From positions 496,001 to 560,000 of the forward strand of contig NZ_HF545616.1 in assembly GCF_000723465.1 (NCBI RefSeq): DNA of 64,000 nt. The letters run 5' to 3'. Both the position numbers and the translations under genes were made by a program. The DNA comes from Ruminococcus bicirculans (ex Wegman et al. 2014). GTDB taxonomy: Bacteria > Bacillota > Clostridia > Oscillospirales > Ruminococcaceae. Below, one piece after another: positions 25,899 to 32,270 of the stretch (position 1 is its first letter; every line of letters begins with the position of its first letter). Under the pieces are notes generated by a model that saw only the letters and a list, made by a program, of their open reading frames with translations, was not told where the DNA came from and ran no database searches.

Positions 25899-27125
25899 AT
25901 GAAAAGCAAAAGAATCTATCCTGCGTTCACTATATCGAAAAAAGGGGAAATGTCCCTGAAAAACGGTCACCCATGGGTGTATTGTGACGAACTGAGAAAC
26001 GAGCCTGAGGGCTTGAAAAACGGTGAGCTTTGCGATGTTTTCTCTGAAAAAGGCTCTTATCTTGGAACTGGTTTTCTCAGCCTTAACAGCAAGATAAGGA
26101 TAAGGATCTTATCTGACAACGCAAATGAAAATTTCTCGGAAAACTTTTTCCGCAGACGTATCCGCTATGCCATAGATTACAGAAAAACTGTTATGGGGGA
26201 CGATTTTTCGGTTTGCAGGCTTATTTTTGGTGAGGCTGACGGCATGCCGGGGCTTACTATCGACAAGTATGGAGATATACTTGTTTCGCAGGTGCTTTCC
26301 TACGGCATGGATATGATAAAGGATATGATATTCAGGCTTCTTGTTGAAGAGCTTGCCAAAGACGGAGTTGCGGTTTCGGGCATAATGGAGCGTAACGATG
26401 TCGCTATCAGAAAGCTGGAGGGCTTGGAACAATACAAGGGCTGGTATAAGGCTGAATTTCTCCCTGAGCCACCGTCAAATATCACTGAGATAACGGAGAA
26501 TGGCATACGCTATGAGGTCGATGTTGAGAACGGTCAGAAAACTGGATTTTTCCTTGACCAGAAATATAACCGCCTTGCGGTGTCGAAGATAGCAAAGGGC
26601 AAGAAGGTCCTTGACTGCTTTACCCACACAGGTTCGTTCGCACTCAATGCGGCAATGGGTGGTGCAAGGCACGTTACGGCGGTGGACGTTTCACAGTTCG
26701 CTGTTGATACGGCCAGGGAGAATGCTGAGAGAAACGGTCTGACTGACAGAATGGATTTTCTTTGCGCAGACGTTTTCGACCTGCTCCCGAAGCTTCTTGA
26801 GGAAAAGGCTGATTATGACATGATAATCCTCGACCCACCTGCTTTCACAAAGAGCAGAAAGACAGTTGGAAGCGCTGAAAGGGGATATAAGGAGATAAAC
26901 TACAGGGCAATGAGACTTCTGCCAAGGGGCGGATATCTTGCCACCTGCTCATGTTCGCATTTTATGGAGAACAGGCTGTTTGTGAAAATGGTAATGAGTG
27001 CTGCAAAGGACGCAGGTGTTCAGCTCAAGCTTATTGAAGCAAGACAGCAAGCTCCTGACCACCCGATACTTCTCAATGTGCCTGAAACGGATTATCTGAA
27101 ATTTTATCTTTTTCAGGTGGTATAG
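25899..27125 (+). CDS. Class I SAM-dependent rRNA methyltransferase, RlmI-like
   Basis: At 408 aa this protein has an N-terminal PUA domain (about residues 1-75, beginning KSKRIYPAFTISKKGE and HPWVY). A linker domain and a Rossmann methyltransferase domain follow, with VLDCFTHTGSFALNAA as SAM motif I and IILDPPAFTKS as motif IV; the TCSCS segment holds the catalytic Cys region. This is the layout of RlmI, which makes m5C1962 in 23S rRNA. Exact site specificity in this lineage is not proven. GTGAGG precedes the ATG. The three small-RNA genes start directly after its stop. Confidence 0.9.
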   Translation: MKSKRIYPAFTISKKGEMSLKNGHPWVYCDELRNEPEGLKNGELCDVFSEKGSYLGTGFLSLNSKIRIRILSDNANENFSENFFRRRIRYAIDYRKTVMGDDFSVCRLIFGEADGMPGLTIDKYGDILVSQVLSYGMDMIKDMIFRLLVEELAKDGVAVSGIMERNDVAIRKLEGLEQYKGWYKAEFLPEPPSNITEITENGIRYEVDVENGQKTGFFLDQKYNRLAVSKIAKGKKVLDCFTHTGSFALNAAMGGARHVTAVDVSQFAVDTARENAERNGLTDRMDFLCADVFDLLPKLLEEKADYDMIILDPPAFTKSRKTVGSAERGYKEINYRAMRLLPRGGYLATCSCSHFMENRLFVKMVMSAAKDAGVQLKLIEARQQAPDHPILLNVPETDYLKFYLFQVV

Positions 27126-27162
27126 GGTTGACAAATGCTTGCGGATATGCTATAATATAGTT

Positions 27163-27298
27163 GTTTAATAAACTAGATATATTTCAGCGAGTCTGCTGAG
27201 TTCGGACATAAGTAGCTTATTTTTCCGCAGTAATGCGGCTGCTTCCAGCCGACAGAATAGACATTTTAGCCCTGCTTTTTTCAGCAGGGCTTTTTATT
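27163..27298 (+). ncRNA. Tandem structured small RNA, copy A
   Basis: The promoter is TTGACA (27128-27133), 17 bases, TATAAT (27151-27156). The transcript of about 136 bases ends at a hairpin of AGCCCTGC with GCAGGGCT plus a T run. The core shared with copies B and C is GTCT, then TCGGACATAAGT, a variable middle, GCTTCCAGCCGA and AGAC. Possible stems are GTCT/AGAC, TCGG/CCGA, AAGTAGC (27210-27216) with GCTGCTT (27238-27244), and CCGC/GCGG at the tip. No ORF is credible. I do not recognise the family. Confidence 0.8.
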
Positions 27299-27346
27299 TT
27301 ACATTTTGCTGTTGACAAATGCAGGCAGATGTGCTACAATAAAAGT

Positions 27347-27478
27347 GTCGAAAGACCGCATATATCACAGTTTGTCTGCTGTGTTCGGACATAAGTCACA
27401 GGTATTTTGGGTATCTTGGCTTCCAGCCGACGAAATAGACTTTTCAGCCCTGTTGATTTCAGCAGGGCTTTTTATTTT
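27347..27478 (+). ncRNA. Tandem structured small RNA, copy B
   Basis: The promoter is TTGACA (27312-27317), 17 bases, TACAAT (27335-27340). It shares TCTGCTG, TTCGGACATAAGT and GGCTTCCAGCCGAC with copy A at the same internal spacing. The variable middle differs in sequence but can still pair: AAGTC with GGCTT, then AGGTA with TATCT. The terminator is AGCCCTG/CAGCAGGGCT plus a T run. Length is about 130 bases. Confidence 0.8.
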
Positions 27479-27525
27479 GCATTTTTGCTATTGACAAATG
27501 CTTGCGGATATGGTATGATATAGGT

Positions 27526-27702
27526 GGCTTAGAAATAAGCGTGGCGCACCCCGTTCGACGCATTATAAATGTACGGCATATCGTAAATTGCCGTTTGTCT
27601 GCGGTATCGGACATAAGTAGGTATTTTCTGCAGAGGTAGCAGCTGCTTCCACCGACAAAATAGACATTTCAGCCCTGTTGTTTTTCAGCAGGGCTTTTTT
27701 AT
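27526..27702 (+). ncRNA. Tandem structured small RNA, copy C
   Basis: The promoter is TTGACA (27491-27496), 17 bases, TATGAT (27514-27519); its spacer is almost identical to that of copy A. The 5' part carries an extra stretch of about 45 bases. The core keeps GTCT, TCGGACATAAGT, GCTTCCACCGA and AGAC, with AAGTAG pairing to CTGCTT. The terminator AGCCCTG/CAGCAGGGCT ends in six T residues. Length is about 175 bases. The ppdK promoter follows. Confidence 0.78.
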
Positions 27703-27809
27703 GTGTTGATATTTAAAAACTGTCATATTGCACATAAAAAGCGAGCAAATATTGTATAAGATTTTATGTATAAAAGTGAGAAAAACCTATGGTAATTTGG
27801 CTTTAAATC

Positions 27810-27818
27810 TGTTATAAT
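27810..27818 (+). promoter_or_regulatory. Probable ppdK promoter (extended -10)
   Basis: TGTTATAAT is a good extended -10 box, but no convincing -35 lies 17 bases upstream. The leader to the ATG is about 70 bases. Confidence 0.55.
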
Positions 27819-27896: not shown

Positions 27897-30524
27897 ATGG
27901 CAAAGAAGTATTGTTATCTTTTCTCTGAGGGTAATGCCAACATGAGAGAGCTTCTCGGCGGTAAGGGTGCTAACCTTGCTGAGATGACAAATATCGGTCT
28001 CCCTGTTCCTCAGGGCTTTACGATCACAACGGAAGCTTGTACTCAGTATTATGAGGACAACCGTGAGATCAATCCTGAGATCATGGCAGAGATCAACGAG
28101 TACATTGTAAAGATGGAAGAGATCACAGGCAAGAAGTTCGGTGACAAGGAGAACCCACTCCTCGTTTCTGTACGTTCAGGTGCTAGAGCATCAATGCCTG
28201 GTATGATGGATACAATCCTTAACCTCGGTCTTAACGAAGAAGTTGTTGAGACTATCGCTGCTCAGTCTAATAACCCAAGATGGGCTTGGGACTGCTACAG
28301 AAGATTCATTCAGATGTATTCTGACGTAGTTATGGAAGTTGGTAAGAAGTATTTTGAAGAGCTTATCGACGAGATGAAGGCTAAGAAGGGCGTTAAGCAG
28401 GACGTTGAGCTGAACGCTGAGGATCTTAAGGAGCTTGCTAACCAGTTCAAGGCTGAGTACAAGTCTAAGATCGGTTCTGACTTCCCAACTGATCCTAAGG
28501 AGCAGCTCATGGGCGCTATCAAGGCTGTATTCCGTTCATGGGATAACCCAAGAGCTAACGTATACAGAAGAGATAACGATATCCCTTATTCATGGGGTAC
28601 AGCAGTAAACGTTCAGTCCATGGCATTCGGTAACATGGGTGACGACTGCGGTACAGGTGTTGCATTCACAAGAGACCCAGCTACAGGTGCTAAGGGTCTG
28701 TTCGGTGAGTTCCTTACAAACGCACAGGGCGAGGACGTTGTTGCTGGTGTTCGTACACCAATGCACATCTCTGAAATGGAGCAGAAGTTCCCAGAGGCAT
28801 TCGCTGAGTTCAACAAGGTTTGCAAGACACTTGAAGATCACTACAGAGATATGCAGGATATGGAGTTCACTGTTGAGCACGGTAAGCTTTATATGCTTCA
28901 GACAAGAAATGGTAAGAGAACTGCACAGGCTGCTCTTAAGATCGCTTGTGACCTCGTTGATGAGGGCATGAGAACTGAGGAAGAGGCTGTTGCAATGATC
29001 GACCCAAGAAACCTCGATACACTTCTTCACCCACAGTTCGATGTAAAGGCACTCAAGGCTGCTACTCCTATGGGCAAGGGTCTTGGCGCTTCTCCAGGAG
29101 CTGCTTGTGGTAAGATCGTATTCACAGCTGATGATGCTGAGGCTTGGAACGAGAGAGGCGAGAAGGTCGTTCTCGTAAGACTTGAGACATCACCTGAGGA
29201 CATCACAGGTATGAAGGCTTCACAGGGTATCCTTACAGTTAGAGGCGGTATGACATCACACGCTGCCGTTGTTGCTCGTGGTATGGGTACATGCTGCGTA
29301 TCTGGCTGCTCAGATATCGTTATGGACGAGGCTAACAAGAAGTTCACACTCGCAGGCAAGGAGTTCCACGAGGGTGACTATATTTCAATCGACGGTTCAA
29401 CAGGTAACATCTATGATGGTATCATTCCAACTGTTGACGCTACAATCGCTGGCGAGTTCGGCAGGATCATGGGCTGGGCTGACAAGTTCAGAACAATGAA
29501 GGTTAGAACAAACGCAGATACTCCTGCTGACGCTAAGAAGGCAAGAGAGCTGGGTGCTGAGGGTATCGGTCTTTGCCGTACAGAGCATATGTTCTTTGAT
29601 CCTGAGAGGATCGCTGCATTCAGAGAGATGATCTGCTCAGACACAGTTGAAGAGAGAGAAGCTGCTCTTGCTAAGATCGAGCCAATGCAGCAGGCTGACT
29701 TCGAGGCTCTTTATGAGGCACTTGAGGGTAACCCTGTTACTATCAGATTCCTTGACCCACCACTTCACGAGTTCGTACCAACAGAAGAGGCTGATATCGA
29801 GGCTCTTGCTAAGGCACAGAACAAGCCTGTTGAGACTATCAAGGCTATCATCGCTTCACTCCACGAGTTCAACCCAATGATGGGTCACCGTGGCTGCCGT
29901 CTTGCAGTAACATATCCTGAGATCGCTAAGATGCAGACAAAGGCTGTTATCAAGGCTGCAATCAACGTTAAGAAGAATCACCCAGACTGGACAGTTAAGC
30001 CTGAGATCATGATCCCACTGGTAAATGATATCAAGGAGCTTAAGTATGTTAAGAAGTTCGTTGTTGAGACTGCTGACGCTGAGATCAAGGCTGCTGGTTC
30101 TGACCTTGAGTACGAGGTTGGTACAATGATCGAGATCCCAAGAGCTGCTCTTACAGCTGACGAGATCGCTAAGGAAGCTGACTTCTTCTGCTTCGGTACA
30201 AACGACCTTACACAGATGACATTCGGTTTCTCAAGAGATGACGCTGGTAAGTTCCTCAATGCTTACTATGATGCAAAGATCTACGAGAACGATCCATTTG
30301 CTAAGCTCGACCAGAACGGTGTAGGCAAGCTTATGGAAATGGCTCTTGAACTTGGTAAGCCAGTTAATCCAAAGCTCCACTGCGGTATCTGCGGTGAGCA
30401 CGGCGGCGACCCAACATCTGTTGAGTTCTGCAACAAGATCGGTCTTGACTATGTATCTTGCTCACCATTCAGAGTTCCAATTGCTAGACTTGCTGCTGCT
30501 CAGGCTGCTATTGCACAGAAATAA
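27897..30524 (+). CDS. ppdK: Pyruvate, phosphate dikinase
   Basis: PPDK interconverts pyruvate + ATP + Pi with PEP + AMP + PPi and serves PPi-linked glycolysis in anaerobes. I chose the ATG at 27897 because TGGAGG lies 10 bases upstream; this gives 875 aa, the normal length. The nucleotide-binding half comes first, the phospho-histidine H455 sits in GGMTSHAAVVARGMG, and the C-terminal PEP domain has CGICGEHGGDP. The gene ends AIAQK then TAA. At 42610-42638 the same 29 bases recur, followed by AGAAGTAA, suggesting that the original ending was AIAQKK and that the last codons were replaced when the island inserted. Confidence 0.97.
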   Translation: MAKKYCYLFSEGNANMRELLGGKGANLAEMTNIGLPVPQGFTITTEACTQYYEDNREINPEIMAEINEYIVKMEEITGKKFGDKENPLLVSVRSGARASMPGMMDTILNLGLNEEVVETIAAQSNNPRWAWDCYRRFIQMYSDVVMEVGKKYFEELIDEMKAKKGVKQDVELNAEDLKELANQFKAEYKSKIGSDFPTDPKEQLMGAIKAVFRSWDNPRANVYRRDNDIPYSWGTAVNVQSMAFGNMGDDCGTGVAFTRDPATGAKGLFGEFLTNAQGEDVVAGVRTPMHISEMEQKFPEAFAEFNKVCKTLEDHYRDMQDMEFTVEHGKLYMLQTRNGKRTAQAALKIACDLVDEGMRTEEEAVAMIDPRNLDTLLHPQFDVKALKAATPMGKGLGASPGAACGKIVFTADDAEAWNERGEKVVLVRLETSPEDITGMKASQGILTVRGGMTSHAAVVARGMGTCCVSGCSDIVMDEANKKFTLAGKEFHEGDYISIDGSTGNIYDGIIPTVDATIAGEFGRIMGWADKFRTMKVRTNADTPADAKKARELGAEGIGLCRTEHMFFDPERIAAFREMICSDTVEEREAALAKIEPMQQADFEALYEALEGNPVTIRFLDPPLHEFVPTEEADIEALAKAQNKPVETIKAIIASLHEFNPMMGHRGCRLAVTYPEIAKMQTKAVIKAAINVKKNHPDWTVKPEIMIPLVNDIKELKYVKKFVVETADAEIKAAGSDLEYEVGTMIEIPRAALTADEIAKEADFFCFGTNDLTQMTFGFSRDDAGKFLNAYYDAKIYENDPFAKLDQNGVGKLMEMALELGKPVNPKLHCGICGEHGGDPTSVEFCNKIGLDYVSCSPFRVPIARLAAAQAAIAQK
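30492..30520 (+). repeat. Left attachment repeat (attL) in the ppdK 3' end
   Basis: A 29-base stretch from GCTGCTGCTCAGG to GCACAGAA recurs perfectly at 42610-42638 in the same orientation. The bases on either side differ, marking it as the boundary of the island. Confidence 0.8.
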
Positions 30525-31049: not shown

Positions 31050-32270
31050 TGTATAATAAAACTTGACACATACAAAACAATCAAAGTATAATAAAAACAA
31101 AGGAGTGTGTCATCAATGGGAACAGGAAAACAATATGATGAAGAGTTTAAAAAGCAGGCAATAAAGCTCGCAAGCTTCAGGCAGCGAACAAACGGATAAA
31201 AGAACTTGAAAAGAAAAACCGAGAGCTTGAAGAGCTTAATGAATTTCTGGAGGAAGCATCTGCTTTTTTTCACCGCGAACCGTCGGAAGTCAGGAAAGAA
31301 GAACGGTTAAAGTTCATTTCCAAAAAGACTGATGACTGTAGGATCACAGGAAGTATCAGTTTTTACTGCAAGGCTTTGGAGGTTACAAGACAAGCATTTT
31401 ATGATCATCTCAGCCATAAAAACGCCCCCTGGAAGTATCAGGCACTTGCAGATGAAATGATGAAGATCCACGAAGAAGACCAATATAATGACTGCTACGG
31501 CAGGGAGCGTATGTATCTTGCATTGCAGCAGAGAAAGGCTGCCGGGAAAACTGACATTGACATTCCCTGTGAAGCTACTGTACGCAAGGTCATGGCGCAG
31601 ATAGGATTGATACACAAGCCTCGCAGAAAGCCAAACGGGATAACCAAAGCTGATCGGCTTGCTCAAAAATCGGATGATCTTCTCAGACGTGATTTTTACG
31701 CAGACAGGCCTTTGAAAAAAGCTGTGACCGACATGAGCGAGGTGAAGGCAAAGGATGGAAAGCTCTATGTTTCAGCGATATTTGACTGCTTTGATCTGAT
31801 GCCGCTGGGGATAGCTATTGAAGATAATATGAGAGCTTCGCTCTGCTGCCATACTCTTGAAAACGCAAACAAATCATATCCTGATATAAAAGGCTGTATC
31901 ATACATTCGGACAGGGGCAGTCAGTATACAAGCGAAGAGTACCGAGCTGCTGTAAAGAAATATGGGATCATTCAAAGCATGAACAGCACTGGCGGAAGAT
32001 GTCATGATAATGCACGCTGTGAAAGTATGTGGGCAAGAATGAAAGAAGAGCTGTTCTACAGCCACGAAGACAAGCCGGAGAACTACACTATGAAAGATTT
32101 GAAGACTATGATCTGGAGATATTATATGAGTTACTGGGCCAACAGAAGAATCTGCACCGCCAACGGCGGGCTGCCTCCGGCAGACCGAAGAAAGCTCTAC
32201 TATGATCATATCTTTCTCACTGTATAATTCTTGTTCGAATAAAATGTGTCAAGTGATATTGACAAAACCA
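31050..32270 (+). mobile_element. IS3-family insertion sequence (IS150-like), longer copy
   Basis: The ends were set by comparison with the second copy at 35412-36234. The left end is TGTATAATAAAACTTGACACAT and the right end, read inward, TGGTTTTGTCAATATCACTTG; both are TG...CA type with CTTGACACAT/ATGTGTCAAG inverted repeats. Length is 1221 bases. No target duplication is visible. orfA (from 31116) has an internal deletion that stops it after about 27 codons, and the same deletion is present in the other copy. Confidence 0.85.
31376..32227 (+). CDS. IS3-family transposase OrfB (DDE integrase core)
   Basis: This 283-aa open frame carries an rve-type DDE integrase domain: D in TDMSEVKAKDG, D in HSDRGSQYTS and E in NARCESMWARMKEE. 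The same frame is open upstream to about 31173 and encodes the OrfA leucine-zipper stretch (ELEKKNRELEELNEFLEEA), so the deletion in orfA fuses that zipper to OrfB but removes the HTH. The catalytic core looks intact, but without OrfA binding the element may not move by itself. ATG at 31376 is only the first methionine, not a proven start. Confidence 0.8.
   Translation: MEVTRQAFYDHLSHKNAPWKYQALADEMMKIHEEDQYNDCYGRERMYLALQQRKAAGKTDIDIPCEATVRKVMAQIGLIHKPRRKPNGITKADRLAQKSDDLLRRDFYADRPLKKAVTDMSEVKAKDGKLYVSAIFDCFDLMPLGIAIEDNMRASLCCHTLENANKSYPDIKGCIIHSDRGSQYTSEEYRAAVKKYGIIQSMNSTGGRCHDNARCESMWARMKEELFYSHEDKPENYTMKDLKTMIWRYYMSYWANRRICTANGGLPPADRRKLYYDHIFLTV

Follow-up and report, generated by a model that had tools for sequence, protein, structure and literature searches.

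A tandem array of probable sibling small RNA genes with a putative pseudoknot fold in Ruminococcus bicirculans

Three similar units of DNA stand head to tail ahead of ppdK in Ruminococcus bicirculans, and the question is what they encode. We analysed a window of 64,000 nucleotides (C1:496001-560000, all positions below being counted from its first letter unless another locus is named) from a genome that totals 2,968,500 bases over two contigs, C1 with 2,240,877 bases and the other with ~0.73 Mb. Among ruminococci, R. bicirculans is described as the only one with two chromosomes (PMC5359413). The units lie within 27128-27702 and are 184, 179 and 212 nt long. A preliminary description had read them as a multicopy family of trans-acting small RNAs. 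Our analysis suggests that the locus is very probably a tandem array of sibling sRNA genes: three related genes are found in one genome, each has its own promoter and terminator by prediction, and the genes are predicted to be non-coding.

The units carry their own transcription signals as judged by promoter and terminator predictions (Table 1), which agrees with the preliminary description of three tandem units so equipped. The 17-nt spacer described there is found in all three promoters together with a TG ahead of the -10 box, and the three promoters are the best among 9 promoter sites in 1.9 kb, where shuffled sequences would give 3.1. The start of the unit 1 RNA was placed 7 nt past the -10 box. 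The GC content of the array is 0.41 versus 0.43 for the window. The leader of unit 3 has ~43 alignment columns beyond units 1 and 2, at 27541-27588.

The promoters of the array appear to belong to a type used more widely in the genus. Their spacers are alike within the array, as had been pointed out (13 of 17 letters shared by units 1 and 2, 16 of 17 by units 1 and 3), but the likeness is not specific to it, since promoters in sister species (L009, L016, L030 and L033) match the unit 1 spacer at 12-14 of 17 letters, these loci having been found by a search with unit 1 and so pre-selected for likeness to its promoter. The recurring type, TTGACAAAT..TGCTATAAT with similar spacers, is seen across several species of the genus: directly ahead of tRNA-Pro clusters at L016 (1501-1529) and L030 (minus strand), ~190 nt 5' of an intact tRNA-Leu gene at L009:202-230, and at L033:1501-1529, where the retrieved locus has no tRNA. 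The spacer similarity looks like the mark of a genus promoter type that also serves stable RNAs, and its position before tRNA genes suggests that the array units are strongly expressed. At L009, positions 261-298 resemble by eye the 5' half of a tRNA-Leu, and the intact tRNA-Leu gene follows at 423-509, an arrangement suggestive of an interrupted or partly duplicated tRNA gene.

Table 1. Features predicted in and around the array
Feature	Position	Strand	Basis
SAM-dependent methyltransferase with PUA domain (upstream neighbour)	25899-27125	+	domain scan
Unit 1 promoter, TTGACA-17-TATAAT, extended -10 TG	27128-27156	+	12/12 hexamer matches, predicted sigma-70
Unit 1 RNA, ~133 nt	27163-27295	+	from predicted start through terminator T-run
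Unit 1 P1 hairpin, 6 pairs (27183-27188/27195-27200), loop GAGUCU	27183-27200	+	alignment and folding
Unit 1 GUCU in P1 loop	27191-27194	+	sequence
Unit 1 P2/P3 with distal hairpin	27202-27252	+	folding, alignment
Unit 1 P2, UCGG/CCGA	27202-27205/27249-27252	+	folding, alignment
Unit 1 P3, AAGUAG/CUGCUU; internal loop ACAU/CCAG between P2 and P3	27210-27215/27239-27244	+	
Unit 1 AGAC, proposed pseudoknot partner of GUCU	27259-27262	+	complementarity in sequence
Unit 1 intrinsic terminator (stem 27268-27291)	27268-27295	+	predicted
Unit 2 promoter	27312-27340	+	11/12 hexamer matches, predicted sigma-70
Unit 2 RNA, ~127 nt	27347-27473	+	promoter/terminator prediction
Unit 2 P1; GUCU; AGAC	27366-27383; 27374-27377; 27437-27440	+	folding
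Unit 2 terminator (stem 27446-27469)	27446-27473	+	predicted
Unit 3 promoter	27491-27519	+	11/12 hexamer matches, predicted sigma-70
Unit 3 RNA, ~175 nt, longer 5' leader	27526-27700	+	promoter/terminator prediction
Unit 3 P1; GUCU; AGAC	27589-27606; 27597-27600; 27662-27665	+	folding
Unit 3 terminator (stem 27671-27695)	27671-27700	+	predicted
Extended -10-like element TGTTATAAT upstream of ppdK	27810-27818	+	sequence
Pyruvate phosphate dikinase, ppdK (downstream neighbour)	27897-30524	+	domain scan

The copies are related in sequence and do not seem to encode a peptide. Pairwise identity of the units is 82-91% over aligned positions, with 17, 68 and 75 gap columns. In the three-way alignment the columns average 75% identity, and by blastn units 1 and 2 are 73% identical. 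A two-copy model recovered the held-out copy in both trials, which covered copies 2 and 3 and kept copy 1 in the model throughout: copy 3 scores 57.3 bits (E 2.9e-14) with the model of copies 1 and 2, and copy 2 scores 62 bits (E 3.7e-14) with that of copies 1 and 3. Invariance extends furthest in the terminator, over 17 columns (27279-27295), a length matched by none of 20,000 column permutations; in the core the longest such run has 12 columns (27202-27213). There are 10 plus-strand frames with a start codon and at least 8 codons, 7 of them open through the transcript end; none of the 10 is common to the three copies and none was seen by eye to follow a Shine-Dalgarno sequence. A coding RNA or a toxic peptide was rejected on these grounds, and the earlier statement that the units hold no ORFs stands in the sense that none of the frames is plausible.

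Do the units belong to a known RNA family? Two checks had been proposed at the outset, an Rfam search and a covariance-model scan of related genomes. The scan of the array with Rfam 15 found no family at its gathering cut-off. At E up to 10, the region 27050-27760 gave 25 sub-threshold matches, 24 of which overlap a terminator, and the best (E 0.004) reached 23.5 bits where the family cut-off is 49.5. At the same threshold the unit 1 core alone gave one match and the unit 2 core none; the unit 3 core was scanned within the whole array and within 27050-27760. 6S RNA (RF00013) did not match the array, and its sole match in this genome at E up to 1 is C1:780190-780402, a candidate 6S RNA with 36.3 bits against a cut-off of 46.4, possibly a divergent one. 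A ToxI-like RNA of a type III toxin-antitoxin system was rejected, the immediate neighbours being a methyltransferase and PPDK and not an endoRNase toxin. Among the papers listed from open PMC text, which cannot be searched by sequence, no title or abstract describes this RNA. We take the units to be a new RNA family, reaching the cut-off of no Rfam family, within a known kind, the sibling sRNAs.

The fold of the units is supported in part by what their substitutions leave intact. Folding z-scores are -4.09, -3.69 and -2.59 for units 1, 2 and 3. Unit 3 has the weakest fold; its full-length best fold departs from the consensus, and in its core the consensus fold lies 1.0 kcal/mol above the best one. 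Most of the covariation sits in hairpin P1, which the preliminary description had missed in drawing the fold. Four of its six pairs vary among the copies, three with both sides changed, and all six stay standard; when the changed cells are substituted at random, the P1 pairing survives at a frequency of 0.0036. P2 (UCGG/CCGA), the ACAU strand of the internal loop and the first four P3 pairs are invariant in all copies, and the second loop strand reads CCAG in the first two copies and CCA in copy 3. Only copy 2 departs at the two P3 pairs that follow, each of them altered on both sides (A-U to C-G and G-C to A-U), copies 1 and 3 having six identical pairs at the P3 base. The covariation that had been claimed for the variable middle holds in that pairing is kept, but at the P3 base it comes from this one copy. 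Distal P3 differs in sequence between the copies and folds in each of them. In both arms of P2, loop and P3, 12 of 12 columns are invariant, and these blocks alternate with a changing leader and distal P3 (4 of 21 columns invariant). Taking P1 and P3 together, all 12 pairs are standard in the three copies, which random substitutions at the changed cells achieve at a frequency of 0.0007. A more cautious control by letter shuffling equals the observed covariation in 32 of 500 cases, with a floor that is limited by having three sequences. P1 and part of P3 are supported by compensatory change among these three, and the view of the units as a multicopy, structured and unrecognised small RNA gains from pairing kept through changes as well as from the Rfam result.

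Our data suggest that GUCU in the P1 loop and AGAC before the terminator close an H-type pseudoknot around the P2/P3 hairpin. We infer it from complementarity, invariance and a geometry of the H type, with a first loop of 2 nt, zero nucleotides between the stems, an A-rich linker, a hairpin inserted in the third loop, and AGAC ~5 nt ahead of the terminator stem. GUCU and AGAC are each invariant across the three copies, and since neither strand ever varies the pairing draws no support from covariation. If the two segments paired as a nested outer stem instead, the fold would be 2.1, 2.5 and 3.8 kcal/mol worse than the best one in the three units, and the pseudoknot with the P1 loop fits better. 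The earlier idea that CATAAGT and CTTCC serve as unpaired binding sites is not well borne out by the predicted ensemble: copies 1 and 2 have AAGU and GCUU mostly base-paired, with only ACAU and CCA open, whereas copy 3 does leave AUAA open. At the predicted starts of all units a 5'-terminal hairpin reaches a joint value attained by 1.3% of letter shuffles; we do not claim it, the one in unit 1 being unstable alone.

The array looks lineage-restricted within the genomes searched. The proposed covariance-model scan was made with a model of the family, R1, over overlapping sets of 29 genomes of the genus, 396 of the family, 394 of the order, 391 of the class and 398 of the phylum. In every set it returned the three own copies and otherwise only weak, chance-like matches; searches above 40 genomes used stricter filters, under which weak homologues could be lost. 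The model matched 13 of the 29 genus genomes at E<=1 (12 weakly, with 16 weak rows and a best of 20.9 bits), 7 of the 396 family genomes at E<=0.05 (6 weakly, best 24.5 bits), 2 of the 394 order genomes at E<=0.01 (1 weakly, 24.2 bits), 2 of the 398 phylum genomes at E<=0.01 (1 weakly, 26.1 bits) and 1 of the 391 class genomes at E<=0.001, namely the host itself. The best score outside the array, 26.1 bits, is far under the 57-62 bits that the held-out copies reach. R1 alignments were inspected for 10 of the 16 weak-match loci submitted (9 of the 16 from the genus, all 6 from the family, and L057), plus L089 and L090. No whole core with promoter and terminator was seen at L005, L009, L057-L059, L061, L062 or L089-L092. 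By eye, L059 looks like an FMN riboswitch, and a number of the other loci seem to lie in coding sequence.

Searches by sequence gave a similar picture. The exact core pattern has 3 sites in the own genome, and among 61 relatives it occurs in 2 genomes, the host and G022, whose locus L005 has the pattern only, with no CCGA after it. The contigs of 84,980 species gave one match, L057 in a Chitinophagales MAG (15.1 bits with R1). Three patterns gave 0, 1 and 1 matches in viral contigs, and L091 and L092 fall short of E 5 with R1. With unit 1 as query, blastn found nothing in phages and two Vibrio records among plasmids (E 0.3, query bases 97-130 at the terminator end); all 29 genus genomes matched at E<=1, outside the own genome with short pieces only, the best non-self match (E 1.2e-5) being the promoter of L009.

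The neighbouring genes suggest that the array is an element of its own. A ppdK match is present in 25 of the 29 genus genomes, the host included, and R1 had no match at E<=1 in the 24 other loci, each taken with ~1.5 kb upstream. The nearest relative by PPDK, G003 (96% over 200 aa), has no array at its ppdK locus, and its best R1 score anywhere is 16.5 bits. Its similarity to the window starts at 27722, directly past the third terminator. Since the G003 locus lacks the array and similarity resumes there, we consider the array an independent element rather than a ppdK leader. The upstream methyltransferase, which we take to be RlmI-like, lies in G003 beside ppdK in the opposite orientation (L065) relative to the window. 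Downstream of ppdK, at 31376-32227, is a transposase-like ORF with an integrase core (rve, PF00665), which we read as IS3-type.

Such a narrow distribution would also be expected of a decaying or neutral repeat, that is, a duplicated promoter-terminator cassette whose RNA has no selected function, as the array was found in one genome only among those searched and is missing from the closest relative. We regard this as quite improbable, because the substitutions spare P2, the internal loop and AGAC and keep the P1 and P3 pairing, and the promoters and terminators of all three units are predicted to be intact.

It is improbable, too, that the units are stand-alone aptamers in which a metabolite controls termination or trans activity. 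The pseudoknot would close just ahead of the terminator, a layout shared with small H-type riboswitches, but we see no directly controlled gene. A cis-acting riboswitch leader was rejected on the same layout, a terminator after each core and, after units 1 and 2, the next promoter. For ppdK itself, the promoter-like element TGTTATAAT lies inside DNA conserved in relatives whose ppdK loci gave no array match. There is no riboswitch family among the Rfam matches listed up to E 10, and no antiterminator was seen by inspection.

How might the RNAs act? The best explanation as a whole, which we would put just short of an even chance, is a duplicated sRNA array with a pseudoknot fold and trans action on mRNAs. 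One promoter-RNA-terminator unit would have been duplicated in the host lineage into three paralogous small non-coding RNA genes. Each RNA would fold into P1, an inner P2 and P3 with the fixed ACAU/CCA(G) internal loop, and an A-rich linker, and AGAC would close the pseudoknot by base pairing to the P1 loop, with the terminator directly after. The well-expressed siblings could act in trans when the structure opens and the C-rich GCUUCCA strand pairs with ribosome-binding sites of the GGAG type, possibly with Hfq. The trans action already proposed in the preliminary description is feasible because Hfq is encoded in the genome (C2:63190-63378, E 3.1e-29). No target was found for the 12-mer UCGGACAUAAGU. 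Outside the array the genome contains no perfect complement of it; complements with one mismatch number 7, versus 34 for a reversed-pattern control, and by eye none of the 7 is clearly placed at a start region. When segments were paired with the predicted start regions of 39 window genes, GCUUCCAGCCGA shows a weak preference, 13 of 200 shuffles pairing as low; the anti-SD sequence, used as control query on the same regions, is equalled by 1 of 200, and four other segments have no preference (83, 157, 61 and 56 of 200). CUUCCA is complementary, with one G-U pair, to UGGAGG ahead of ppdK. In the predicted ensemble the GCUUCCA strand is partly buried in P2/P3 and would have to open for target pairing. 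We regard base pairing as the mechanism as possible but somewhat doubtful.

Most of the conserved residues lie in structure, which would be expected rather of a protein- or ligand-binding RNA. Protein binding by the array, which we rate as rather unlikely, would mean that the pseudoknot and the fixed internal loop bind an RNA-binding protein that three strong copies titrate, by Csr-, 6S- or FopS-like logic. The invariant columns cluster in P2, the internal loop, the P3 base and AGAC while distal P3 and the leader drift, and the promoter type suggests high dosage. No partner was found among the five neighbouring proteins scanned; the PUA-domain methyltransferase may bind RNA, but G003 has the gene without the array. 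Each core has one GGA, unlike CsrB-type RNAs, and a 6S-like role is countered by the separate 6S-like candidate elsewhere in the genome. FopS sRNAs, for their part, are reported to interact with the RbpB protein (PMC11697453). On prior grounds the antisense reading is the likeliest, if weak, with protein binding close behind. It is unlikely that the RNAs form a new stand-alone pseudoknotted class of one gut Ruminococcus lineage, amplified in tandem and working in trans by protein or ligand binding and not as antisense RNAs.

Regulatory RNAs of gut ruminococci appear to be little studied, as far as open PMC text goes, where we found nothing. The locus provides three naturally occurring versions of a single uncatalogued RNA whose starts and ends are predicted, and the array would exemplify a structured RNA family that arises and duplicates within a narrow lineage.

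The array may be compared with several known systems. preQ1-II is an H-type pseudoknot riboswitch with a hairpin in loop 3, and it shares with the proposed fold the general pseudoknot layout and the inserted hairpin. It differs in that it is not among the Rfam matches up to E 10 and that the array has no directly controlled downstream gene. Tandem sibling sRNAs are already known as a kind (PMC4211561, PMC4132741). LhrC1-5 of Listeria monocytogenes are, like the array, multicopy sRNAs of a Gram-positive bacterium with a promoter for each copy; they are 111-114 nt long and bind Hfq, which is not required for lapB regulation, and their CU-rich sites block lapB translation (PMC4132741). The LhrC copies, in contrast, are described as differing hardly at all from one another and as conserved in every Listeria species (PMC4132741). 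Their CUCCC motif is absent from the array, with 0 CTCCC on the plus strand of 27128-27702, and Rfam shows no relation. The csRNAs of streptococci, OmrA/OmrB and AbcR1/2 are siblings that stand in tandem in some or all hosts, OmrA/B having conserved ends with divergence between them (PMC4211561). These families are described from several species (PMC4211561), whereas the array was found in one genome only, and what its copies conserve is chiefly structure. FopS of Bacteroides thetaiotaomicron has 14 members (9 intergenic, 4 antisense and 1 from a 3' UTR), is conserved within the Bacteroidaceae, and belongs to another phylum (PMC11697453). The two have in common that they are paralogous sRNAs of gut commensals, in the case of FopS associated with an RNA-binding protein (PMC11697453).
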